Origin: a virus | Virus record (IMG/VR): IMGVR_UViG_3300015371_000210 | Span: 1-21,761 of that record | Strand: one strand, 5' to 3' | DNA length: 21,761 nt | Shown here: positions 2,920 to 19,733 of the stretch, piece by piece | Position numbering within the stretch: the stretch's first letter is position 1 | Layout of the letters: each line of letters begins with the position of its first letter | The notes under the pieces: generated by a model | Database searches by the model: none | The model's input: only the letters and a program-made list of their open reading frames with translations | What the model was told of the DNA's origin: nothing | Program-made: the position numbers and the translations under genes

Positions 2920-3768
2920 TCAGCAAGTAAATTCTTTGGTATAATACCAATAATCATAGCCGGGGACCCACCGACAAGTAGCATAGAAAAAATTACCAAG
3001 AGGGGTGTTGCGTCCTCCGATTGGTGGACCACTGCCATCTTTGTAATGCTGATCAAAATAATTATTGACAACATAAACGTTTTTTCGATTAGCCGCAGGC
3101 TGAAATGCAATATAACAACCTGCCCCTTTATTTTTCAGGAATTGATTTTTAGTAATCATAACTCGAAGTAAGCCCTGAGTCGGTAAGTCTGGTTCAATAT
3201 CAATACCAGCTTGCGGATAGGGTGATTCACTGTGCGTCAAGGTGAACAAACTGTTTTGCACTGTTAGGTCTTCGGCAGAAATAATTGATAAGCCATTGCG
3301 AGCATTGTCGGCACATAGCACATGATCTACTGTTACCAATTTTGAGTCATGAATATACAAACCATCAGCTTGGGCTTCGCGAAGCGCCAGACCTTCTCCA
3401 ACTCGGATATCATGTGAATTGAGGATTTGTAGACAAAAACCATGTCGCCCTGGTTCAGTAGTAATATGCTTATAACGTTCTCCGATAATTGCTCCGGGTC
3501 CGCTAATACTAACATCCTCAACATCCCGAACGTCCACAATTATACTGCTAACTTTATTATGTGGGATGGCTCGCAATATTCCTTCAACTTTTAAATTGGT
3601 GTGGGAATGCATTCGAACACTGCGGATAGAATCAACAAAAAATTCAGTTTGTGGCGGAATCCAAACAGTGTCTCCGCTTGCGGCACGATCCATTGCGATT
3701 TGAATGGCATCAGTACTATCGGGACTATTAGGTACTGCCCCAAAATCTAAAACATTAAGTGTACTCAT
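2920..3768 (-). CDS. Right-handed beta-helix protein (pectate lyase-like fold)
   Basis: A 282-residue protein. The N-terminus has the pattern VLDFGAVPN..DSTDAIQIAMDRA followed by G.TVWIPP (residues about 6-40), the opening of many pectate-lyase-3 / polygalacturonase-type beta-helices. It is followed by repeated short strand/turn units typical of beta-helix coils (SIIVDVRDVEDVSISGPGAI, DGLYIHDSKLVTVDHVLC, NGLSIISAEDLTVQNSLF, VYVVNNYF). There is no signal peptide. Such folds in phages are usually tailspike or capsule-degrading modules, but this protein lacks an obvious virion-anchoring N-terminal domain. It begins three bases after the BA14K-like gene. Substrate and catalytic residues are not identified. 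Confidence 0.75.
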   Translation of the reverse strand: MSTLNVLDFGAVPNSPDSTDAIQIAMDRAASGDTVWIPPQTEFFVDSIRSVRMHSHTNLKVEGILRAIPHNKVSSIIVDVRDVEDVSISGPGAIIGERYKHITTEPGRHGFCLQILNSHDIRVGEGLALREAQADGLYIHDSKLVTVDHVLCADNARNGLSIISAEDLTVQNSLFTLTHSESPYPQAGIDIEPDLPTQGLLRVMITKNQFLKNKGAGCYIAFQPAANRKNVYVVNNYFDQHYKDGSGPPIGGRNTPLGNFFYATCRWVPGYDYWYYTKEFTC

Positions 3769-3771
3769 AAA

Positions 3772-4089
3772 TTATCCCCGGGGACAACGATGGAATCTCC
3801 CATCGTACCCAACATATAATCCAGTTTGTGGATTCCAGCTTCGGAAGTGTTGAACACAATAATTGTAGGCTGCGTTTGGATTATAATAGGGTTGCGGCTG
3901 TGGATAGTATGGTTGTGGTTGAGGCGGGTAATATGGCTGCGGCTGGGGAAAGAACGGGAATGGGCTATTACCGCATCCACCAAACAAACAAACATTAATG
4001 TCAAAGCCACCGAAACCTTGGCGTCTACCCTGAGCATTTGCAGGGGTTAGAAACACCAATAAAGCAATAAGACAAAGTATATATCTCAT
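3772..4089 (-). CDS. Secreted BA14K-like protein with PQPQPYY repeats
   Basis: A 105-residue protein with an N-terminal signal peptide (MRYILCLIALLVFLTPANA, probable cut after residue 19), a Gly-rich section with two Cys (34, 39), three proline-rich PQPQPYY repeats (about 48-69) and a C-terminal YNYCVQHFRSWNPQTGLYVG motif continuing to Cys102. The last part matches the BA14K family pattern (C...RSYDP.TGTY.G.DG..H.C), known from alphaproteobacterial surface-exposed proteins. Its ribosome site, GGAGGT, lies in the 3' arm of the terminator hairpin just upstream (see 4094-4129). A phage copy is unusual; probably acquired from a host. Export to the periplasm or envelope is expected; role unknown. 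Confidence 0.82.
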   Translation of the reverse strand: MRYILCLIALLVFLTPANAQGRRQGFGGFDINVCLFGGCGNSPFPFFPQPQPYYPPQPQPYYPQPQPYYNPNAAYNYCVQHFRSWNPQTGLYVGYDGRFHRCPRG

Positions 4090-4147: not shown

Positions 4148-5572
4148 TTAGGTAAGGTTTTTGACAATTACGCGCCGATAGTAAACATTACTATCTTGTG
4201 TCAGAGCACCCAAGCCTTGAGTTGTGCCTTGAGCATATGGGTTCGCAACCACGCCATAACGGGTCTTGAATCCAATCTTTGGCTGGAAGGTGTTTGGATC
4301 AACTGCCCGAACCATTTGCAATGGCACATATGGGCAATAGAACAAGCCAGCGTCAGCAAAGTTGTTACCCTTATAACCAATGGTTAGATATTCTCCACCC
4401 ATTGCATACGGATCAATATAGACGCGATACTTGCCATTAAGCACTCCCGCAAATGTGTTGCCAGTGTCATCCACTGACAGGTTGTTGCTGGTAAGAGCCG
4501 TGCTGTAGTCAAGCTTGCCGGTTTCAGTTAACGCCGATGCTACGTCCGAAGAACACAGCACAACGTTACCACGACCCCGACGAGTCTGCTTGGCAATTTG
4601 ATTTGCTTCGCGCTCTAGCTGGAAGTGAAGTCCCTTGAACTTTTCCACCAACCAACGACCATTGGAATCAACATCAAGATCAAAAATACCGGCTGATGTC
4701 GTGTCGGTCTGTGCGCCAGAAACCGCGCAGATGTTAATCACGCGAACGATTTCTCGGTTAATTTCTGCCAGAATTTCGGTTGACAGAATGTTGCTTAGTT
4801 CAGTCTCAGCATCAAGCCCATGAACGGCTTTCAAGTCCTGAGCAAGTTCCATGCTGTACTCAGCCTTTAGGGCACGAGACATTGCAGTAACGGAAACTTT
4901 CTCAATGCTGAAGCCCATTTCAGGGAAGATTGAGAGAGTGTTAGAACCTAACCATTCCGTTAGGGTTCGGCTGATACCACCTGCATAGTTATAGGTGCTA
5001 TTACCAGCGTTATTAGAAACGCCAGGGATGCTAAAGGTTGTATTAGAACCAACGTTATTAGCACCACCACCAAGAACAGTGTTAGAAGCATATCCTGTTT
5101 CTGAGTTAGCAGTTGCATTTGCACCACCACGGGCTGAGAAGCCAGTGTTAGGCTCATAATAGAAAGCTTCCGTACCTGATGTGGTGTTAGAAGATGCATT
5201 GATGTAACGAGAACGCATCGCAAAAACGAGTCCAGTAGGACCAGTCATTTGCTGAACGCCACACAGATCATACGCAATCAGGTTAGGCATTGCCCGACGA
5301 ATTAGGGAAATCATAATCGGGTCAAAAGTATCGATTGCACCCGTACCTTGCGTAGAACTTGAAGCTCCCATGCTGTTGGTTGGTGCAGCTTCCCGCAACA
5401 GGAATTGAGATTGATCCCGATAGGCTCCCAATTCACGTTCGGTGTTTTCCAGCATGCATGCCGTTACCAACCGACGATGTGGGTCTTTAATATTTGGCAA
5501 TTCGGGATGATTCAGAACTGATTCCCATTTCTTCTGAACTTCTTCTGCCAGATAAGCCAATTGCATAATCAT
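4148..5572 (-). CDS. 23: Major capsid protein precursor (gp23-like)
   Basis: A 474-residue homologue of T4 gp23 (521 residues), the hexamer-forming shell protein. Recognisable segments include the N-terminal KKWESVLNHPELPNIKDPHR, the AMRSRY stretch, the central FSIEKVSVTAMSRALKAEYS region, and the C-terminal conserved GFKTRYGVV. The prohead protease consensus (L/I)xE occurs at L59-R60-E61 followed by Ala, close to the known cut after residue 65 in T4, so residues 1-61 are likely removed in maturation. Start at the first ATG with AGGGAGA upstream; an ATG two codons in is possible. Own late promoter (5614-5621) and a terminator (4094-4129) make it a separately transcribed unit. Confidence 0.97.
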   Translation of the reverse strand: MIMQLAYLAEEVQKKWESVLNHPELPNIKDPHRRLVTACMLENTERELGAYRDQSQFLLREAAPTNSMGASSSTQGTGAIDTFDPIMISLIRRAMPNLIAYDLCGVQQMTGPTGLVFAMRSRYINASSNTTSGTEAFYYEPNTGFSARGGANATANSETGYASNTVLGGGANNVGSNTTFSIPGVSNNAGNSTYNYAGGISRTLTEWLGSNTLSIFPEMGFSIEKVSVTAMSRALKAEYSMELAQDLKAVHGLDAETELSNILSTEILAEINREIVRVINICAVSGAQTDTTSAGIFDLDVDSNGRWLVEKFKGLHFQLEREANQIAKQTRRGRGNVVLCSSDVASALTETGKLDYSTALTSNNLSVDDTGNTFAGVLNGKYRVYIDPYAMGGEYLTIGYKGNNFADAGLFYCPYVPLQMVRAVDPNTFQPKIGFKTRYGVVANPYAQGTTQGLGALTQDSNVYYRRVIVKNLT

Positions 5573-5633: not shown

Positions 5634-6734
5634 TTACAATGGACGCAATGTCCGCGAAATTGCCTTCATGTAAGATTGCATCTGCGGAGCTAAGTTTTTC
5701 AGATTGTCTTCCGCTGGAGCATTATCCTCGTCCACAGCTTCCATGGTTTCATTCAAGGTTTCAGTCTTTTTCTTAGGTGTTCCTTTGACGAAATTGCTTT
5801 CTTTGATCACTGTTACTTTCTTGGTAAAAGCTTCAATATCATCAGCATCAACAGTTTCAGATAGTTCCCGAAGCTTTTCGGTCTGTTGCAAAGTCAAGCC
5901 TTCACTCAACTTTTCAACAACTTCTTTCTTCTCATAACCTGCAACCTTCTCTTTCAACGATCCATTATCAGTAATCAAATCATTGACTCGTGATTCTAGT
6001 TCATCAACTTTAGTTGCTAGTGTATCAACAATATCGACTTGTTCTTCTGGAATATTGGCGTTGTGCTGAAGGAACAGATTGCGCAATCCTTCAATGAACT
6101 CAGCCGTCATCTGATTACGTAGGGCTGATTCAATTGCTACTTGATTTTCGGTTAGCCATTCCTTGGCAACGTAATCAAGATAATTGTCAACACCATGTAG
6201 TAGTTCTTCGGTTAATCCTTGAATTTCTTCATCCAGACGCTTGTTGTAAGTATCTTCCATTTCAACAAGAATGGCATTAACTTGCGCATCAACTGCGGCT
6301 TCAAACAAAGTGGTTGCCTTGTCCTTAAATTCACCACTAAGACCATCCTCACCATCCAACAGTTTGGAAACATCTTGCTTGATAGCTTCCTTAACAGCTA
6401 AATGGGGGGTTGCCATTTTCTCTTTGCCATATGAGTGTTCGTGGGTAGCATCTGAAGGGTGCATATCATGAGTTGCATTATTACGACCAGCAACATCACC
6501 AACTCCCATACCGTGACCAACTTGACTATGATAGGACATCATAGAATTAAAATGCTTCAATAGATCATTATCCTGCATGGCAAGGCTGGCCCCAACCATC
6601 TTGGCAATCATTTCTGCTTTGCTCTTGGGGTCCTCAGCCGGATGTGAATTTGGCTTTAGAGATTCAGCCGCAGCGGTACCCTCTTTGACAACTTCGGTTT
6701 CTTCTTTTAGTTGCTTCTTTGCAATCCGCGCCAT
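5634..6734 (-). CDS. 22: Prohead core scaffolding protein (gp22-like)
   Basis: A 366-residue, highly charged, mostly helical protein lying directly between protease and capsid genes, exactly where T4 has gene 22. Long heptad-like stretches (e.g. VDIVDTLATKVDELESRVND) predict coiled coils in the middle third. The C-terminal region is acidic and ends in a short basic tail (SYMKAISRTLRPL). T4 gp22 builds the inner core of the prohead and is degraded by gp21; several (L/I)xE triplets here would be possible cuts. Strong AAGGAGAT ribosome site and late promoter CATAAATA just upstream. The T4 protein is 269 residues, so this version is longer. Confidence 0.9.
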   Translation of the reverse strand: MARIAKKQLKEETEVVKEGTAAAESLKPNSHPAEDPKSKAEMIAKMVGASLAMQDNDLLKHFNSMMSYHSQVGHGMGVGDVAGRNNATHDMHPSDATHEHSYGKEKMATPHLAVKEAIKQDVSKLLDGEDGLSGEFKDKATTLFEAAVDAQVNAILVEMEDTYNKRLDEEIQGLTEELLHGVDNYLDYVAKEWLTENQVAIESALRNQMTAEFIEGLRNLFLQHNANIPEEQVDIVDTLATKVDELESRVNDLITDNGSLKEKVAGYEKKEVVEKLSEGLTLQQTEKLRELSETVDADDIEAFTKKVTVIKESNFVKGTPKKKTETLNETMEAVDEDNAPAEDNLKNLAPQMQSYMKAISRTLRPL

Positions 6735-6774: not shown

Positions 6775-7446
6775 TTAGTGGTGTTTACGCTGTATTTCGG
6801 CAACCAAACTAGCAAATTGTTCAAATATTTGCCGACTATTCTTCTTGATTACTGGAATCGACTGTTTTTTTAGTTCTTTTCGGGTGTTTTCTACCCATTC
6901 TCCCAAACCCAAATCATAGATATATTCCCGTCCTTCCATGATACCGTCCACGAAAGCATCGGGTGCGCTAGGGTCGGCAACCACATCAATGGCTAGAAGG
7001 CGCAAATCGTCCTGTACCTCATTGATGCCATCTTTCATCGCTTTGACGGAACCCAAAGCCCGGGTGCTTACGCCCAACCGTGCTCCATCGTTAATCAGTC
7101 CTGCCACAATTTGACCCATGGGGGTGCTGGTGACTTTGGCTTTTCCGATAAAATTATTGCCTTCTTTGATCAATTCTGTTGTCAGAATACAGGTCCGATC
7201 CAGATTGATGTTGGGCCCAGATGGATGACCAAGTTCCCCGAATGCTCTCTTGGGCTGAACTGATTCTTTTAGAAACCGATTGATTTCATTTTCAAGGATC
7301 GGCATTCGATAGATACGCTTGTTACGATTAGCAACATCGGCTTGGGCAAACGGACCATGAATGAACAGAGTGGTCTTGCCTTCCTTTTCTTCTTTCAGAT
7401 ACTCAATATCCTCATTTAGTTCTCGTATTAATTTCATTTTTTCCAC
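6775..7446 (-). CDS. 21: Prohead core scaffold/maturation protease (gp21-like)
   Basis: A 223-residue homologue of the T4 prohead serine protease (peptidase family U9/S80). The catalytic His is in FGELGHPSG (H74), the nucleophile Ser in LGVSTRALGS (S127), and the conserved Asp-rich segment DVVADPSAPDAF follows (about 154-164). T4 gp21 cuts scaffold, capsid and internal proteins after (L/I)xE and then itself. The annotated start is a GTG directly after the stop of the upstream gene; an ATG three codons in (7437) is an alternative. The length matches T4 gp21 (212). Flanked by gp22 downstream. Confidence 0.95.
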   Translation of the reverse strand: MEKMKLIRELNEDIEYLKEEKEGKTTLFIHGPFAQADVANRNKRIYRMPILENEINRFLKESVQPKRAFGELGHPSGPNINLDRTCILTTELIKEGNNFIGKAKVTSTPMGQIVAGLINDGARLGVSTRALGSVKAMKDGINEVQDDLRLLAIDVVADPSAPDAFVDGIMEGREYIYDLGLGEWVENTRKELKKQSIPVIKKNSRQIFEQFASLVAEIQRKHH

Positions 7447-7992
7447 TCAGTTTTTGTAGGCAACGGGTACGCCCAAAACCTTGCCAGTGTTGTTATTACA
7501 TGACAAAACATCAGTGTTATGTTTCTCTAATGTAATTTCAGCCCCAATTTGCAGGGGAATACTACCGATTTGAACATTAGTAACTGAATCACTTACTGTG
7601 ACCATTGCTACGGCTGCATCGGTATTCAATAAACGAACCAGTTTGGCTCCGCTCAAATTGGTATTGGCATTGTTTACCTGCCAATTATTTACAGCTAAAT
7701 TAGCAACTAAAGTAGCTCCCGTACCGTTTGATGCTGCGCCGTTTGCAGCATAGACCGTAAATTTAGCATCGGTGTTAATTTGAGCTGGTGCAAAGCGTCC
7801 GACATTACGGACAACGATATCAGTATTACCAAATTGACCAGCAGCATTAGTAGTGAATGTCGCAATGGCATTCATAGTAGCATTACTGACCACAATAAAA
7901 TTAGTGTTATGGTAACCAGTAGCACCAGTTACATTGATATTGTTCAGAAACTTCTCGGCAACTTGGGGTATTAATTTAGTTATTGTTGTCAT
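7447..7992 (-). CDS. Putative structural protein, paralogue of the 88-residue neighbour
   Basis: A 181-residue Asn/Thr/Ala-rich, Cys-poor, probably all-beta protein. Its C-terminal 70 residues (KLVRLLNTDAAVAMVTVSD through ITLEKHNTDVLS and the end GVPVAYKN) align with nearly the whole of the next gene upstream, while residues 1-100 are an extra domain with the repeats TNFIVVSNATMN and NTDIVVRNVG. The ATG shares a base with the previous stop (TGATG). Composition and location between internal head protein and prohead protease suggest a head decoration or tail-fibre-like beta domain; no named family recognised. Confidence 0.75.
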   Translation of the reverse strand: MTTITKLIPQVAEKFLNNINVTGATGYHNTNFIVVSNATMNAIATFTTNAAGQFGNTDIVVRNVGRFAPAQINTDAKFTVYAANGAASNGTGATLVANLAVNNWQVNNANTNLSGAKLVRLLNTDAAVAMVTVSDSVTNVQIGSIPLQIGAEITLEKHNTDVLSCNNNTGKVLGVPVAYKN

Positions 7993-8258
7993 CAGTTCTT
8001 AAATCCAATTGCTGTAGCCAATACATTTGTGGCATGATTTGAAGTCAACACGTCAGTCGCATCTTTCTCCAGAATAATTACACTGTTTGCCGCCATTTGA
8101 TAGGTCGCGGTTTGAGTATTCGCGACGGTATCGAATTGCGTAATCAGCGCAACAGTTGCACCAGTATTTAGGATTCTTACTAATTTTGAAGCATTTACGC
8201 TGTTATTAGTTGTGGCTATGGCTGCGCTATTTGCTCTTACTTGAATTATCTCACTCAT
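7992..8258 (-). CDS. Small beta-rich putative structural protein
   Basis: An 88-residue protein starting MSEIIQVRANSAAIATTNN. The pattern KLVRILNTGATVALIT...ILEKDATDVLTSN...AIGFKN is the same module as in the C-terminus of the downstream gene, so the two form a paralogous pair, probably an old tandem duplication. A GGAGAGA ribosome site lies within the end of the upstream 801-residue gene. Likely a small beta-sandwich virion protein; function not known. Confidence 0.75.
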   Translation of the reverse strand: MSEIIQVRANSAAIATTNNSVNASKLVRILNTGATVALITQFDTVANTQTATYQMAANSVIILEKDATDVLTSNHATNVLATAIGFKN

Positions 8259-10664
8259 TTATTCTCTCCAATGTTTCTTGACATCAGCTACCGGCATACT
8301 GTTCTTGCCATATATCGGAGCAATACCCACGGTCTTAGATAATTTCGTATATGGATGCTTGTATTCCAAATAATTTACAGTGTTTATCAAATTGTTTAAT
8401 TTGTTTGATGGTTGCACAGTTGGTTGTTTAAATTCCAAGTAATTTACTGTATTTATTAGGTTATTTAATTTGTCAGCAACGTCTTCATGTTGATGACATA
8501 CTGTTAGATGATAGCTTTGAAAGAGACTGCGTTCATTTGGTACTGGTATATCTTTGTTCATAGCATCATGATAATGTTCGGTAGCTCGTCTAAGGTGTCT
8601 ATTTCGTTCCGCAATATATTCGCCAATTTCATTAGGCAGTGATTCCGTCAAATCTTTTTTTTTACCCTTCCAAAAAAGCTCAACATGTGGTCGCTCCGGA
8701 TGCTTTTTAGCTTGTTTAGCTAAGTATTTTTGAACTTGCCGCCCCAATGTAGTGTGAGGTATAGCTATTTGAATTTCATCTAATGATTCTTCTTCTTCAT
8801 TGGTACGTTTTGCCAAAGCCCGATCCCGTAACCGACGAATTAAGGTTGAAATATCCTGTCGAATGGAATTACCAAAGGCTCCCCCAATTCCAGCTCCCGC
8901 AATAGCCCCGGGAACACCGGCAATATAACCTCCAATTACGGCTCCGGTTATTGCTCCAGATTTGCCAAGGGTTTTATGTTCTCGTCCTTCAGTGTCACGC
9001 GGAGTTTCACTTGCCCGTAATTCTTTTTTACGTTGACGATTAATTGCCCAAGCTCCAGCTAGACCAGCCGCAGCCCCGCCCACTATATTTCTGGCAATAC
9101 TGGGCTGAGCAAAATTTTGTTGAGCCCACATTCGATCATAGGCATCTGGAACAAATGCCCCTGTTACTGGATCATATGCTTCCGTTACTTTTTTTTTTAA
9201 ATCAACATCTTCATTTTTTTTGGAATAACAAGCTCCAAGAGCACGTTTGATACGTTGTTTTTTAGAATCATCCGAGAACTTTTTATTCTTGCTATGAACA
9301 AAATCATGAATTACATCTTTGCATGGAGTGTCCTTGGTGATTGTTTCATCAAGTTGGGTTTCTTCTTTTTTAATAGTCTCAAATTTACCCGATTTAAAAA
9401 ATTTGCGAGCAGTTGCAACATGTTTTTCGTGTTTAGTTTTTGCAGCCGCTACTTCTTTAGGATGATGGTGACTACTCCAATAAAAACTACCAGCTTTTTG
9501 GGATTGTCTTTCAACATTACCAATTTTATTTAAGTATTGTTTTTTTGTTTTGTTGGAGATTTCGTCTAATGTTTCTTCATTCTTTTCGCAGTGGGTACCT
9601 TTGCATCCTGCTGCATCAAGAAATCGCTTACGGTCAAAACGTGGATTTTGTTTACTGAACACCTCGGCATGATGATGGGCAACACGCTCCCGATCTGCCG
9701 GGTCCTTGATCATCTTAACAACTTCGGCAACTTGCTTGAAATGCTTGCGAGTTGGATAACCTTCGTTTATGGTTTCTTCTTTTTTGATAGATTTTGGAGC
9801 ATTGGGTTTGTACCCTGCATCGGGGTGGCGTCTACGATGGGCTAGTACTGTTGCTGCATCGTTTACTTGGTCCAAATATTTGCCTTCGGCTTTATCATCA
9901 TGACCTCTTACTGCTTTGGATGCGGCATGAGCATCTTTCATGATATAATGCAATTCAGCATCAGATTTTTCATGATAAGGATGACCCTTTATAGGAGTAG
10001 CATAACGTGCTTCATCAAGCTCAGTTTCTTCTTTCTTCAGAATTTTTTTAGCTTCTGCTTTGGATGGTCCTCCCATAACACCCAACATTTCATCAGGCAT
10101 TTTTAATGAACCACGAGCTACTTTACGTTGATGCCATTTACTAGGATCATTACGATGTTTGGCATCAGGGTCTTTCATTGTTTTTTTCTGATATGCACTT
10201 AAAGTGGGTTTTTGTGTTTCATCAATCTGATTACCAGTTTGTTCGGTTTCATTACCCAATAAAGTTTTACCAACTTTTTTCGCTACAGCTTTACCTAATC
10301 GTGATACGGTTCCTCCAAGCGAACTAGCAGGCTTTGCCGTTAGAGCAGAAGATGAACTACCATGTTCACCCCCAAGTATACTGCGACTTCGACTACGACC
10401 AAACGATTTTCCTAAATCCGCTAGGCTACCACCTCCCATTTGTTCGGCTTGCATATAAGGCGAAGTATCTTTTACTGGTGCAGCTCCCCCGCCTTTACGT
10501 GTGGCTGGTTGAATGTTAGAGGCATTGAACATCTTGTCATCATTACCGTTGGCATCCAACGTCTTTTGTACGGTATGCATACGTACAAACTCTTTTTCCT
10601 TACCAGACTTAACTGAAGTAACGGCTGGATTGGTGACCATTATTTGTTTTAATTTCTTAGCCAT
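8259..10664 (-). CDS. 801-residue modular internal head protein (possible polyprotein)
   Basis: A long basic, low-complexity and modular protein between gp67-like and gp21. Repeated linkers occur at residues 211-218 (KEETELDE), 294-301 (KKEETINE), 361-368 (KNEETLDE), 432-440 (KKEETQLDE) and 622-630 (NEEEESLDE), with IDE at 147-149. All contain the (L/I)xE triplet of T4 prohead protease sites. Between them lie distinct short modules, for example DAELHYIMKDAHAASKAV, DRERVAHHHAEVFSKQNPRF and CKDVIHDFVHSKNKKF, of a type I have seen in marine T4-like phages. Residues 523-601 hold two glycine-zipper hydrophobic stretches. The C-terminus has a tandem 17-residue repeat (KLNNLINTVNYLE). Likely packed in the prohead and processed; function otherwise unknown. 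Confidence 0.8.
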   Translation of the reverse strand: MAKKLKQIMVTNPAVTSVKSGKEKEFVRMHTVQKTLDANGNDDKMFNASNIQPATRKGGGAAPVKDTSPYMQAEQMGGGSLADLGKSFGRSRSRSILGGEHGSSSSALTAKPASSLGGTVSRLGKAVAKKVGKTLLGNETEQTGNQIDETQKPTLSAYQKKTMKDPDAKHRNDPSKWHQRKVARGSLKMPDEMLGVMGGPSKAEAKKILKKEETELDEARYATPIKGHPYHEKSDAELHYIMKDAHAASKAVRGHDDKAEGKYLDQVNDAATVLAHRRRHPDAGYKPNAPKSIKKEETINEGYPTRKHFKQVAEVVKMIKDPADRERVAHHHAEVFSKQNPRFDRKRFLDAAGCKGTHCEKNEETLDEISNKTKKQYLNKIGNVERQSQKAGSFYWSSHHHPKEVAAAKTKHEKHVATARKFFKSGKFETIKKEETQLDETITKDTPCKDVIHDFVHSKNKKFSDDSKKQRIKRALGACYSKKNEDVDLKKKVTEAYDPVTGAFVPDAYDRMWAQQNFAQPSIARNIVGGAAAGLAGAWAINRQRKKELRASETPRDTEGREHKTLGKSGAITGAVIGGYIAGVPGAIAGAGIGGAFGNSIRQDISTLIRRLRDRALAKRTNEEEESLDEIQIAIPHTTLGRQVQKYLAKQAKKHPERPHVELFWKGKKKDLTESLPNEIGEYIAERNRHLRRATEHYHDAMNKDIPVPNERSLFQSYHLTVCHQHEDVADKLNNLINTVNYLEFKQPTVQPSNKLNNLINTVNYLEYKHPYTKLSKTVGIAPIYGKNSMPVADVKKHWRE
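8352..8471 (-). repeat. Tandem 17-codon duplication in the 801-residue gene
   Basis: Residues 732-748 (8421-8471) and 755-771 (8352-8402) read KLNNLINTVNYLE followed by FKQP or YKHP. The DNA copies are clearly related but have diverged, mainly at third codon positions, so protein sequence is being conserved. Confidence 0.8.
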
Positions 10665-10896
10665 TATCTTCCTTTTCCGGTTCTTTTATTTCAGTTGGCT
10701 TTGGTTCGTTGTCAGGTTCCTTAACTTCTGGTTCTTCCTGACCTTCCGGCGACCCAAACAATGCAGATGATAGGTCAAGCTTCTTTTGAGCAACCAAGGC
10801 TGAGATACGTTCCTTCATTATATCATTAAAATTGCTGGCAACATCGCTGGATTTTTGGTCAACAATAGAATCAATCAAGTCCTTAACATCAGTCAT
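10657..10896 (-). CDS. 67: Prohead core protein (gp67-like)
   Basis: A 79-residue protein with a helical N-terminal half (KDLIDSIVDQKSSD then IMKERISALVAQKKLDLSSALFG) and a highly acidic, Pro/Glu/Lys-rich C-terminal half (about 50-79). T4 gp67 is an 80-residue prohead core protein with the same architecture (helical start, acidic end), in the same place immediately downstream of the portal gene. Strong AAGGAGAC ribosome site; exact TATAAATA late promoter 23 nt upstream. The stop overlaps the start of the 801-residue gene by eight bases, so the two are co-translated. Assignment rests on position, size and composition. Confidence 0.8.
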   Translation of the reverse strand: MTDVKDLIDSIVDQKSSDVASNFNDIMKERISALVAQKKLDLSSALFGSPEGQEEPEVKEPDNEPKPTEIKEPEKEDNG

Positions 10897-10939: not shown

Positions 10940-12715
10940 TTACGTGCCTTTACTTAGGATTGCCGCTACCGACTTAAAGTTGTTTGGTTTATTTTTAGTT
11001 TTGGAAACTTTTTGGGTGTCAGTAAACGACTTATTGGCTCCTAATTTAGAAACTGCCATCGGTCCTGCACTTTTCAGTTGACCTTTACCATCACTTTGAC
11101 CGTTACCATTTGACAATTCGGGAGATGGTGAATCGAATGATCCACTATCAGCAATTACGGCGGGATTGTTAGGATCATCCATGGCATTCGGGTCTTGACC
11201 CAATGGCATCATAAATTGTGGATCATTCATTTCCTCGGCAATCTCGGCATCCATTTCCTTGATTTCCTCTTCAGACTGCTTCAGGATATTTTCCCGCAAC
11301 CATTCATTTGAGTAGTATCGACCCACAAACGGTGACATTGACATGGCTAACTCAAGTCGAGCTGCCATGATCATTTGTTCCTTGCCTTCTAGGAAATAAT
11401 TATCCTTCACAAAGTCAAATTTTAAGTATGGGGCAATGATTTGGAAATCTTCAATGGTCATGATCTTCTTCAGAACAATTTGTTTCTCCATGACCTTGAC
11501 GAATAATTGAGAGAAACGGGTTCGTAACCGTTCAATGAACTTACCAAACTTCACTTCATCACGAGTAATCTGAGTAGCAATATCGGCATTATACAGATTA
11601 TTAGGATCGAGCCGACTGATTGGAACATGCAGAGATGAGTAGAGTTTCTTCTGAAAGAACAAGATATCATCTAACTGATTAAAAGCTGCACCGGGAGGTA
11701 GCACATCAACTTTGGTACCCTTACCTTCGCGTTGCGGCAACCAATAGTCTTCCAACATATTAATGAACTTGTGTTCATTTCTAATTTCACCAGTTTCGGC
11801 ATTATAATTAAGCTTGTTTTTATGCTTGTTCATAATGTCTTTGACGTATTGTTCGGCTTTCATCTTGGGTAGATTGCCAATATCAATGTACCAAATACGC
11901 CGCTCCGGACTTCGACTAAGACGATAGATAATCGCCGCATCCTCTAAAGTGCGCAGTTGGTTAAGGGGTTTGATGGCTTTATGTAGATAGGATAGAACCA
12001 TGCTACCTAATGAATCCGTCAAACCCGAAGTGACATGAACTACAGCATCTTTGGCAATTTTCAAACCATTGGTTGCGCCTCCACCAGACGCAGGATTCTG
12101 CATAGCTTTCTGTGCAAAATTAAAACCCCGATCCGAGTATAGAAAATACTCGTTTTTGGTTTGGGTCAGGACAGCATCCCCGGCAGTTACCGCCGATCCC
12201 CGCACTTGTCGCTTGATAATTTCTCGAATTTTGCGAATTTTACGCGGGTCAATATACCGAATTTCTTGAATACCCTCGACGGTATTTTGTTCATCAATAA
12301 TCACATGAAAATATAACCGACCATCAATATACCAACGTTTGACCACATCATAGAGATGTAAACGAGCATCCAACAATTCCAAGACTTCTTCAAAAGCCAT
12401 TACTAGAGCTTTTTTAACAACATCATTCTGTTCGACATCATCCAGAATTATTTTGACATTGTATTCTCCCGCAATCATTTCATTGATGATTTCATCTACG
12501 GCGTTATCAATCTCGGCTTGTTCAGCCATTTGTCGGTAACGATTGACGACTTCAGCTTCACTACGTACTGTTCCATCAAGATCAATAAAAGTTCCAAATG
12601 CACCAGCCGCAGCTACAGCGGTCGCGCCATCATCAAATTCCCGGGGGGAAAAGCTAGGCGGTTCAGGCTTGTCCTGATCCTTACGTTTGAATTCAAAACC
12701 AAAAAGTTCTATCAT
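10940..12715 (-). CDS. 20: Portal vertex protein (gp20-like)
   Basis: A 591-residue homologue of T4 gp20 (524). Typical segments are FGFEFKRKD at the N-terminus, NRYRQMAEQAEIDNAVDEI (about 58-76), RYIDPRKIRKIREI, TLEDAAIIYRLSRSPERRIW (central, a hallmark of T4-type portals) and LHVPISRLD. The dodecameric portal sits at one capsid vertex, initiates prohead assembly and is the DNA channel to which terminase and neck attach. The C-terminal tail (about 500-591) is Asn/Asp/Ser-rich and not conserved. Transcribed from a late promoter lying in the terminator loop just upstream (12747-12754). Start ATG with a short AGGT ribosome site. Confidence 0.96.
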   Translation of the reverse strand: MIELFGFEFKRKDQDKPEPPSFSPREFDDGATAVAAAGAFGTFIDLDGTVRSEAEVVNRYRQMAEQAEIDNAVDEIINEMIAGEYNVKIILDDVEQNDVVKKALVMAFEEVLELLDARLHLYDVVKRWYIDGRLYFHVIIDEQNTVEGIQEIRYIDPRKIRKIREIIKRQVRGSAVTAGDAVLTQTKNEYFLYSDRGFNFAQKAMQNPASGGGATNGLKIAKDAVVHVTSGLTDSLGSMVLSYLHKAIKPLNQLRTLEDAAIIYRLSRSPERRIWYIDIGNLPKMKAEQYVKDIMNKHKNKLNYNAETGEIRNEHKFINMLEDYWLPQREGKGTKVDVLPPGAAFNQLDDILFFQKKLYSSLHVPISRLDPNNLYNADIATQITRDEVKFGKFIERLRTRFSQLFVKVMEKQIVLKKIMTIEDFQIIAPYLKFDFVKDNYFLEGKEQMIMAARLELAMSMSPFVGRYYSNEWLRENILKQSEEEIKEMDAEIAEEMNDPQFMMPLGQDPNAMDDPNNPAVIADSGSFDSPSPELSNGNGQSDGKGQLKSAGPMAVSKLGANKSFTDTQKVSKTKNKPNNFKSVAAILSKGT

Positions 12716-17303: not shown

Positions 17304-18951
17304 TCATCAAATCATCCCATTGTTTGGCTAGTTCCACCATATCAGGCTCGCCCTTATCAATAAAGCCAAAGGGAATCAAATCTTCCTCAACAGCTTGCAT
17401 ATCCTTATCGCGCAATTCCGAAAGCGTATTGACGTTAATCAGATCAGTAAAATATTGCTGATCGCTCATCCAACCAAATACCACCAAGGCCATTACTAGA
17501 TCATCATGGCATCCTTCTTCGGCTTCAAATTTCTTTTTGCCTTCCTCGCGTGAAAATGTAGCAAATTCATGCACAGAATTATAGTCAATGACCTTTAGTT
17601 TATTTTGTTCAATTAGCAGCTTAATTAAGGAGCATCCCATTGACCGAACGATCTGCGTCATTTTCACGCCGCGATCTACGCCCCGCCCTGCCGCCATTGT
17701 AATCTGCTTACCCTTTGCCCCCTGACTGGCTGTTGACAACAAATTTTCGTAACCAAAGTCATTGAACAATATATCAGATACTTGTGGTCCTAAATTCTCA
17801 TACTCAACGAGTATCATGGCACTATTGTAGGATTTGGCGGTTTGATGAATAATTTGAGCAAATTCATGCGGACCCATTAAGTTGGAACGAAACACACAGA
17901 CCTGTTCCCATGGCATAGTTGTAATATCAATGCATTGTAATACTGAGTAATTCAAGCCTTTGCCTTCTGAAACATCCACAGTAACGGCATAAGAATGGTT
18001 CTTCATTGGTTCGACATATTTGGATAACCCATCTTTATAATAAATCGGTTCCTGATAATCCACCATCATTTCTTTTAGTTTCCATCCCGCAATCAGCGTA
18101 CCAGATGAACCAAGGAATTCACACTCATACTCTTGGGCAAACTTATCATAATCATTGTTCAACTCGGCTACTGCCATCAGCTTCCATTCATTATCGCGCC
18201 CTGGTACCTGTGACCAATGCACCATGATTGGAATATAACCATTCGATTCTTTAGCCGTTGGTTGAGCATTCTGCCATGTCTTGTAGAAGTGGTTCAATCC
18301 CAGGGGAGTGCTGATTTGCACCAGCTTAGTGGTTCTACCAGATGAAATGGTTGGGATAACTGAGCTTGCAAATTCTTCCCAATTCTCAACGTGCGCCGCT
18401 TCATCAATGATCAGGAGGTTAACGGTATATCCCCGAATGGTATCAGAGGCAGTTGAATCAGCAATGGCTCGACTACCGTTTTCCAATACAATCCCATGTT
18501 TACTCCATTCCACAATACCTTGTTGTAGAAAATGTGGAATGTACATAAAGGCTAAATGTAACTTGCTGAGAATTTCTAAGGCTGTTTTTTCTTTGTTAGC
18601 CACCAACGCAGCGGTAACTGATTCATTGAACAGAATATACCATAAGATATATCCAATCATAGCGGTGGACTTGCCTGATTGGCGCGCCATACACATGATA
18701 ACTCGGCGGTTGGCATGGATGGCATCAATCATTTCGACTTGATAGCCCCGCAATTTAAATGGTACCAATCCACGATCAACATGAATAATCTTCATGTAGT
18801 TTTCAATGAAATATACCGGGTCTTTGGCACACTTCTGATATTCTTCAATGGATTCCTTAGTCCATTGTATCTGTGTGCCAACCTTTTTCAGCCGGGGATT
18901 GTTTTTAAATCCCCCTTCAAGATTTAGAATTAAAGGTTCATTATCTGTCAT
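17242..18951 (-). CDS. 17: Terminase large subunit (gp17-like)
   Basis: A 569-residue ATPase-nuclease that drives DNA packaging (T4 gp17 is 610). ATPase domain: Walker A ARQSGKST (89-96), Walker B LLIIDE (179-184), coupling motif STP (214-216). Nuclease domain of RNase H fold: first Asp in VTVDVSEG (D326), Glu in LVEYEN (E383), final Asp pair in CHDDLVMAL (483-484), matching the catalytic acid triad of gp17. The ATG overlaps the stop of the cysteine protease gene as ATGA, so it is translationally coupled. The 3' end overlaps the plus-strand 17055 gene by 62 bases. All key residues are present, so it should be active. Confidence 0.97.
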   Translation of the reverse strand: MTDNEPLILNLEGGFKNNPRLKKVGTQIQWTKESIEEYQKCAKDPVYFIENYMKIIHVDRGLVPFKLRGYQVEMIDAIHANRRVIMCMARQSGKSTAMIGYILWYILFNESVTAALVANKEKTALEILSKLHLAFMYIPHFLQQGIVEWSKHGIVLENGSRAIADSTASDTIRGYTVNLLIIDEAAHVENWEEFASSVIPTISSGRTTKLVQISTPLGLNHFYKTWQNAQPTAKESNGYIPIMVHWSQVPGRDNEWKLMAVAELNNDYDKFAQEYECEFLGSSGTLIAGWKLKEMMVDYQEPIYYKDGLSKYVEPMKNHSYAVTVDVSEGKGLNYSVLQCIDITTMPWEQVCVFRSNLMGPHEFAQIIHQTAKSYNSAMILVEYENLGPQVSDILFNDFGYENLLSTASQGAKGKQITMAAGRGVDRGVKMTQIVRSMGCSLIKLLIEQNKLKVIDYNSVHEFATFSREEGKKKFEAEEGCHDDLVMALVVFGWMSDQQYFTDLINVNTLSELRDKDMQAVEEDLIPFGFIDKGEPDMVELAKQWDDLMIRGKSWILMDESDPDYPLDF

Positions 18952-19733
18952 AGTGCCTTATACAGTCGATTCGGATCGAGTGTTTCCATGCTACGAATAC
19001 TGAAACAATCATCACAAAGAGCACTATGCATAACTGGTTGTGGGATGTAACAAAAGCCATTATCTCCCCAACCTTTACCCCACGAATTCATAATAACATA
19101 CCAGTCTTTCTCATCATCATAATCCAGACACAAGATGGCATGACCACCAACTATTTTGTCGGATCGCACCGGGTATGGTACTATGCCAGTTTTAGCAACT
19201 GAATCATTTTCAAACGATGAATAGATTTGCATGCCAAATACAAACGGATACCCATCAACCAACGACTGTTTTAGATTATAGGGGGTCTTATCAATACGGA
19301 TGTATTGTTTGACCATATTTTGTACGGCATCTTTGAAACAATGATCAGAAGGATGGTTCCAAAGATTTTCTTTGACAAACGGAAAGTCTTCTTCGGGACA
19401 TACTCCAATATTAGCCAAAACTCGCATTGACGAACGAATGGTTGCGCCTTCATCCTTAGCCAAAGTCCCTTCATAGCGCCGTTCAACCCAATAATGAAAC
19501 AGCCGGGATGGTAGAGTTGCGGGTAGTCCTTCTCTCTTATTGACAAACCGATTAAGCCCTACAGCAGCATGAGAGGTACATGATGATGTTTTGGCTTGGC
19601 TATAGGCTTCCCAATCCACCAAAGCTTTATTATTGGTTCGCACTGGTAGGGAGACTTCTTGTGGAGCCGCCACACCATACACAACGTCGCGATGATCTTT
19701 GGGCGACCATTTCATCCCATAATAATAAATCAT
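18948..19733 (-). CDS. Papain-like cysteine protease (peptidase family C1A)
   Basis: A 261-residue protein with the complete C1A catalytic set: oxyanion Gln and nucleophile Cys in SQAKTSSCTSHAAVG (Q46, C52, spaced as in papain), His in GGHAILCLDYDD (H198) and Asn in MNSWGKGWGDNGF (N216). The segment GATIRSSMRVLANIGVCPEE (about 96-115) is the S.R..L..L...GVCPE stretch typical of bacterial C1A enzymes. It has neither a signal peptide nor an obvious propeptide, so it probably acts in the host cytoplasm. It lies between small and large terminase genes, linked to each by an ATGA overlap. T4 has nothing here. Target is unknown. Confidence 0.92.
   Translation of the reverse strand: MIYYYGMKWSPKDHRDVVYGVAAPQEVSLPVRTNNKALVDWEAYSQAKTSSCTSHAAVGLNRFVNKREGLPATLPSRLFHYWVERRYEGTLAKDEGATIRSSMRVLANIGVCPEEDFPFVKENLWNHPSDHCFKDAVQNMVKQYIRIDKTPYNLKQSLVDGYPFVFGMQIYSSFENDSVAKTGIVPYPVRSDKIVGGHAILCLDYDDEKDWYVIMNSWGKGWGDNGFCYIPQPVMHSALCDDCFSIRSMETLDPNRLYKAL

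Follow-up and report, generated by a model that had tools for sequence, protein, structure and literature searches.

Organization of p801 and its gene neighborhood

The DNA analyzed here, hereafter the window, is a 21,761-nucleotide IMG/VR fragment (record IMGVR_UViG_3300015371_000210, positions 1 to 21,761) from a T4-superfamily myovirus. Its minus strand carries head genes in the T4 order, running from sheath and tube through portal gp20, a gp67-like gene, a gene that we call p801, two small related proteins and a gp21-like S77 protease to gp22-like and gp23-like genes. The genes that bear on p801 are as follows.

4148..5572, minus: gp23-like major capsid protein, with an inferred maturation site FLLRE/AAPTN placed by analogy with 43 relatives (here and below a slash marks a proposed cut)
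5634..6734, minus: gp22-like scaffold (PHROG/Pfam and sequence), with an N-terminal p801-like linker, KEETEVVKE/GTAAAES
6775..7446, minus: gp21-like prohead protease (Peptidase_S77; PF03420, 1e-35; phrog_207, 4e-66), the proposed processing enzyme
8259..10664, minus: p801, modular head-locus protein and candidate polyprotein (ORF and translation)
10657..10896, minus: gp67-like prohead core protein (phrog_1064)
10940..12715, minus: gp20-like portal protein (phrog_213, 1e-175)

A first-pass annotation of this DNA had described p801 as a possible head polyprotein lying in the same late transcript as gp21. The ORF is genuine, with 801 codons between an ATG at 10664 and a stop at 8259 on the minus strand (a strand that the annotation had not given), and it does lie upstream of gp21 in the same orientation. 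The protein belongs to no PHROG family, its only Pfam match is a sub-threshold one to a glycine zipper, and neither database revealed an enzymatic domain in it. Its gene occupies the position of T4 gp68, between the gp67-like gene and gp21. For the N-terminal core domain no homology to T4 gp68 was detected, HHalign giving a probability of 0.1 when 18 N-terminal domains were compared with 10 gp68 sequences.

The two small proteins between p801 and gp21 (p88 and p181; 7447-8258, minus) are related to each other (phrog_19805), and a p88-like gene adjoins gp21 in many relatives. A papain-family cysteine protease ORF (PF00112, Peptidase_C1; 18948-19733, minus) lies between the terminase genes, an unusual position in a T4-like late operon. 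Beside the head operon are ORFs for a NADAR-domain protein (389-871, plus) and a right-handed beta-helix protein (2920-3768, minus). The domain of a small ORF at 3772-4089 (minus) is BA14K-like (PF07886) and belongs to a family described in alphaproteobacteria, which hints at a host in that group.

Along the p801 chain, small modules alternate with linkers and candidate junctions.

10479..10664, minus: N-terminal core domain (aa 1-62), also present in syntenic relatives; L001 and DLP6 have it as a free-standing protein
10218..10253, minus: junction 1, NETEQTGNQIDE/T (IDE 147-149), a weak site in the sequence without the KKEE prefix
10011..10040, minus: linker 2, LKKEETELDE/A (KEETELDE 211-218), strict motif, predicted disordered
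9795..10010, minus: module M3 (aa 219-290), predicted helical hairpin, found in 6 other proteins with different neighbors
9762..9791, minus: linker 3, SIKKEETINE/G (KEETINE 295-301), strict motif, predicted disordered
9609..9761, minus: module M4 (aa 302-352), also found in L129 and L190
9561..9593, minus: linker 4, HCEKNEETLDE/I (KNEETLDE 361-368), strict motif
9345..9374, minus: linker 5, IKKEETQLDE/T (KEETQLDE 433-440), strict motif, predicted disordered
9195..9344, minus: module M6, or "DFVHS" module (aa 441-490), two predicted helices, found in 73 loci
9180..9221, minus: candidate junction KKNEDVDLKKKVTE/A (aa 482-495; VTE 493-495, with V at P3) at the boundary of M6 and the glycine zipper, from the sequence and the wider [LIV]xE rule
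8829..9182, minus: glycine-zipper module M7 (about aa 495-612), common to p801 and L014
8775..8804, minus: linker 6, TNEEEESLDE/I (NEEEESLDE 622-630), a looser form seen in the sequence
8643..8666, minus: candidate junction GKKKDLTE/S (LTE 672-674), seen in the sequence

The C-terminus carries a tandem repeat, KLNNLINTVNYLEFKQP / KLNNLINTVNYLEYKHP, at residues 732 and 755 (8352-8471, minus).

Six or more linkers of the form K(K/N)EET-x-(L/I)(D/N)E had been claimed for p801. Four strict copies stand (residues 211, 295, 361 and 433), while the copy at 622 is looser and that at 147 is a bare IDE, so that the count was overstated. Four strict motifs compare with a mean of 0.0006 per protein and a maximum of 1 in 5000 composition shuffles, which excludes chance. 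Bare (L/I)xE tripeptides occur nine times in p801, four of them outside linkers against 3.7 expected; since this number is unremarkable, the signal lies in their placement inside linkers.

In AlphaFold2 models M6 forms two helices and M3 a helical hairpin, with pLDDT of about 85-92, and the linkers flanking them have values of mostly about 50 or less, as in disordered segments; the input alignments were small and shallow, with mean pLDDT of 69 and 66. Structure matches were to phage proteins, some of them annotated as cytidyltransferase-like or EF-hand. A search for solved-structure relatives of M6 returned short matches to designed dTor repeat proteins only (best E 1e-4, 23 residues), which we do not consider relatives. 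The modules are mostly basic and of 5-20 kDa, with computed pI of 8.7-10.1. Cuts after every junction Glu would yield fragments of 15.5, 7.8, 9.3, 7.8, 8.4, 20.6, 5.2 and about 14 kDa, the largest of which would be divided by the extra VTE/A site at 493-495. In agreement with the basic products foreseen earlier, all predicted fragments are basic except for the 8-residue stretch 675-682.

Constant junctions and exchanged modules in relatives

A gene of the p801 type is found directly upstream of gp21 in about 30 loci. Relatives encoded at this locus, in the interval from the gp67-like gene to gp21, differ in length from the 801 aa of p801 (L014, 525 aa; L015, 474 aa; L016, 613 aa), and in L001 and the cultured phage DLP6 the protein is short and consists of the N-terminal domain only. 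As the first-pass annotation anticipated, the linkers persist in these syntenic relatives, whereas modules are exchanged, missing or found in other positions. When searched separately, the modules of p801 matched different viral proteins with different neighbors (six for M3, two for M4 and 73 loci for M6). Among 44 non-redundant relatives, picked by module similarity and not by linker, [KN]EE[VTAIL] was followed by [LI]xE within six residues in 59% of cases versus 7% of arbitrary 9-aa windows. At an E value of 0.01 sequenced phages contained no direct p801 homologue, and M6 together with its own linker found no match in them either. We found no description of the linker/module system in the open-access literature that we searched.

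At the DNA level, the pattern KEEVEx(I/L/M)DE was found in at least 120 viral stretches. By a loose count, among the matches listed 99 ORFs had at least two linker-like motifs and 21 had one; thus most, but not all, of these matches are multi-linker proteins. An extended linker pattern gave 55 matches in 51 loci among the viral matches listed. The GTDB genome set yielded only two, one lying in a frame of 74 aa and the other in a pilus-type ATPase, neither of which is a recognizable multi-linker protein. Linker strings are also encoded by the cultured Caulobacter phage Cr30 (AGS80949), Synechococcus phage S-SKS1 (AGH31595) and Prochlorococcus phage P-TIM68 (AIR93496); in Cr30 the residues that follow a junction Glu include AAKGYYHF, ISKATLGS and VSKSLLAR.

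The position of the junction is highly regular. Across 44 distinct contexts before M6, Glu occupies P1 in all and L/I/V occupies P3 in 43, while P2 is variable (D, N, Q, S, E, T, A, L and M among others), as are positions further upstream. M3 starts directly after [LIV]xE in 7/7 proteins, these residues ending either a K-EE linker or, at the N-terminus, a short leader. The polyprotein proposal depended on conservation of the linker Glu in homologues, and this held before M6 (44/44) and in the M3 alignment (7/7); Val can also occupy the L/I position. ELSK-type modules, which are unrelated to M3 and M6, begin after [LIVM]xE in 92 of 95 cases. A boundary common to unrelated modules is unlikely to belong to any one fold.

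Six proteins that open with M3 or M6 (L181, L133, L119, L184, L188 and L059) have a short leader in place of the linker: MKNFKTFITE/GR, MIKFNEYTVLEE/GR, MKSLKDIRTQIDE/VL, MKTLKEFNLQINE/VL, MKSYKDIVQQLDE/VL and MKSFLDLQLE/VL. The leader Glu is kept in all six and [LI]xE in five, the exception being MKSFLDLQLE/VL of L059 with Gln at P3. In L137 the leader is slightly longer and ends in ITE.

Association with gp21 and the proposed processing

T4 gp21 cleaves after L/I-X-E (PMC9026906), and the inferred maturation site of the capsid protein is always LxE, with variable P2 and P1', in 43 relatives. Besides the window, relatives also have the p801-type linker in gp22, which gp21 is known to cut, and in some of them gp22 or the gp67-like protein carries entire modules as fusions. 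We compared linker- or module-bearing contigs of at least 40 kb with random controls in the same size class and found S77 in 29/44 of the former versus 1/15 of the latter (Fisher p = 6e-5). For contigs picked by the linker pattern alone the frequency was 18/29 (p = 4e-4), and it reached 16/17 for linker-bearing contigs over 100 kb. Fifteen contigs were S77-negative; gp23 is missing as well from 13 of them and is truncated by the contig end in the remaining two, so many of the negatives are probably fragments; the 187-kb S77-negative contig of L162 is an exception that this explanation leaves over.

Our combined findings suggest that p801 is probably a prohead-core polyprotein that gp21 would cut into small basic head proteins, a reading of sequence patterns that leaves the polyprotein interpretation of the first-pass annotation partly supported. 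The same layout is seen in numerous uncultured phages of the T4 type. In the scheme that we propose, a chain of small, mostly basic modules, with acidic, disordered linkers that end in (L/I)-x-E between them, would enter the prohead core together with gp22. During maturation the S77 protease gp21 would cut after the Glu of each linker, and short basic proteins would be left in the head in equal copy number. These pieces may coat the DNA or be injected like T4 internal proteins.

Several observations count against processing by gp21. P2 is mostly Asp in the K/N-EE linkers and is Asp in 0/43 distinct inferred capsid-protein sites, which indicates that the linkers carry a constraint beyond the minimal specificity of gp21. 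The EF-hand-like KID module follows a weaker rule, with P1 Glu in 24/24 cases, [LI]xE in only 3/24 and [LIVM]xE in 14/24. Within modules [LI]xE shows no absolute depletion (122 seen versus 107 expected) and is low only relative to the mirror motif E-x-[LI] (178 versus 106 expected), and thus internal cuts would be possible. No N-terminal (L/I)xE leader is present in p801 itself, which begins with MAKKLKQIMVTNPAV. Finally, a distant M6 relative in Agrobacterium phage Atu_ph07 has no junction before it; the text of the study in which Atu_ph07 virions were analyzed by mass spectrometry does not name its gene (PMC6102473).

The linkers could instead have a docking role. They may be repeated motifs, comparable to internal capsid-targeting sequences, that bind the gp22 core and so draw the multi-module chain into the head, with the chain left intact or cut only at its N-terminus. 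This would fit the occurrence of linkers both in p801 and in gp22 itself, as well as the frequent conservation of the acidic upstream part (K/N-EE-V/T-E), which cleavage alone would not need, and in T4 a leader of 10 residues serves both targeting and cleavage (PMC9026906). Nonetheless, before M6 the acidic part is free to vary while P1 Glu and P3 L/I/V are fixed, the pattern of a protease site. Docking and cleavage can also coexist, and we consider docking in place of cleavage unlikely.

The linkers might alternatively be inert flexible spacers that spread with the modules through duplication and recombination, with (L/I)xE incidental. They are charged and predicted to be disordered, and codon identity between linker copies inside one ORF is 0.78 versus 0.63 expected, suggesting that some were copied along with modules. 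The window copies, however, keep the protein motif with different synonymous codons (CTT/TTA, GAT/GAC, ACT/ACC/ACA) and are therefore not recent DNA duplicates; on this ground we rejected the idea that plain DNA-level duplication alone explains why the linkers are conserved. Moreover, the junction rule survives replacement of the spacer by an unrelated N-terminal leader, and linker-bearing contigs are strongly associated with the S77 protease. This explanation appears improbable. Cutting by another protease, such as the papain-like enzyme at 18948-19733, whose Peptidase_C1 ORF belongs to the same run of minus-strand genes and is flanked by those for terminase, or by post-injection processing in the host, is very improbable, as the junction fits both gp21 specificity and the inferred capsid-protein site and the association measured here is with S77.

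Processing of p801 by gp21 could be one instance of a broader "cassette string" system in many uncultured aquatic T4-superfamily phages, to which we give an even chance. Any module following an (L/I)xE site would be a head passenger, whether behind an N-terminal targeting leader, inside a polyprotein or within gp22, and the freely swapped cassettes would make up an equimolar, evolvable load that is injected or DNA-bound. If true, this would account for a large set of so far unannotated proteins of environmental T4-like phages, which could be read by splitting them after (L/I/V)xE and annotating every fragment on its own. Phage head biology would gain a protease-processed polyprotein whose modules are exchangeable, along with a source from which new injected proteins could be drawn.

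Comparison with known head and injected proteins

The closest parallels are in T4, where the internal proteins IPI-III and Alt are small basic head-core proteins with a leader ending in (L/I)xE that is cut by the S77 protease (PMC9026906, PMC9958956). T4 capsid-targeting leaders are about ten residues long and are removed by gp21 (PMC9026906). The N-terminal modules of p801 relatives have leaders of this kind, and these resemble the T4 capsid-targeting sequence. T4 internal proteins are nevertheless encoded by one gene each and undergo a single N-terminal cut, whereas p801 has many modules in a chain with a cut-site-like linker before each and no recognizable leader. Set against a T4-type gp21-processed internal head protein, p801 thus shares the encoded S77 protease and (L/I)-x-E at its boundaries, and differs at its N-terminus.

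In operon position, p801 is similar to the T4 core proteins gp67, gp68 and gp22, and gp22 of the window has a p801-type linker. In T4, gp21 cuts core proteins at multiple sites (PMC9958956). These proteins are broken down there into peptides, most of which exit the head, while p801 consists of distinct conserved modules that are predicted to fold.

An S77-related protease (phiKZ gp175, SPN3US gp245) also processes many internal and ejected proteins of phages phiKZ and SPN3US; its cleavage motif is short and has Glu as the last residue, and long propeptides are cut several times (PMC10052503). Those cuts mostly take off N-terminal propeptides (after AxE in SPN3US) rather than setting free a series of shuffled modules.

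Polyvalent proteins of phages and conjugative elements are multi-domain like p801, are thought to be packaged and injected, and some are processed (PMC5512222). They are defined by two or more disparate enzymatic domains, which are large, whereas p801 has tiny modules, a uniform linker and no recognized enzymatic domain. Unlike p801 itself, one relative (L041:4339-6945, 868 aa) joins a cytidyltransferase-like domain, behind the leader MKTFKASLTE/A, to p801-type linkers and a DUF5824 domain. Linker-string proteins are also encoded close to cytidylyltransferase genes in P-TIM68 and Cr30.
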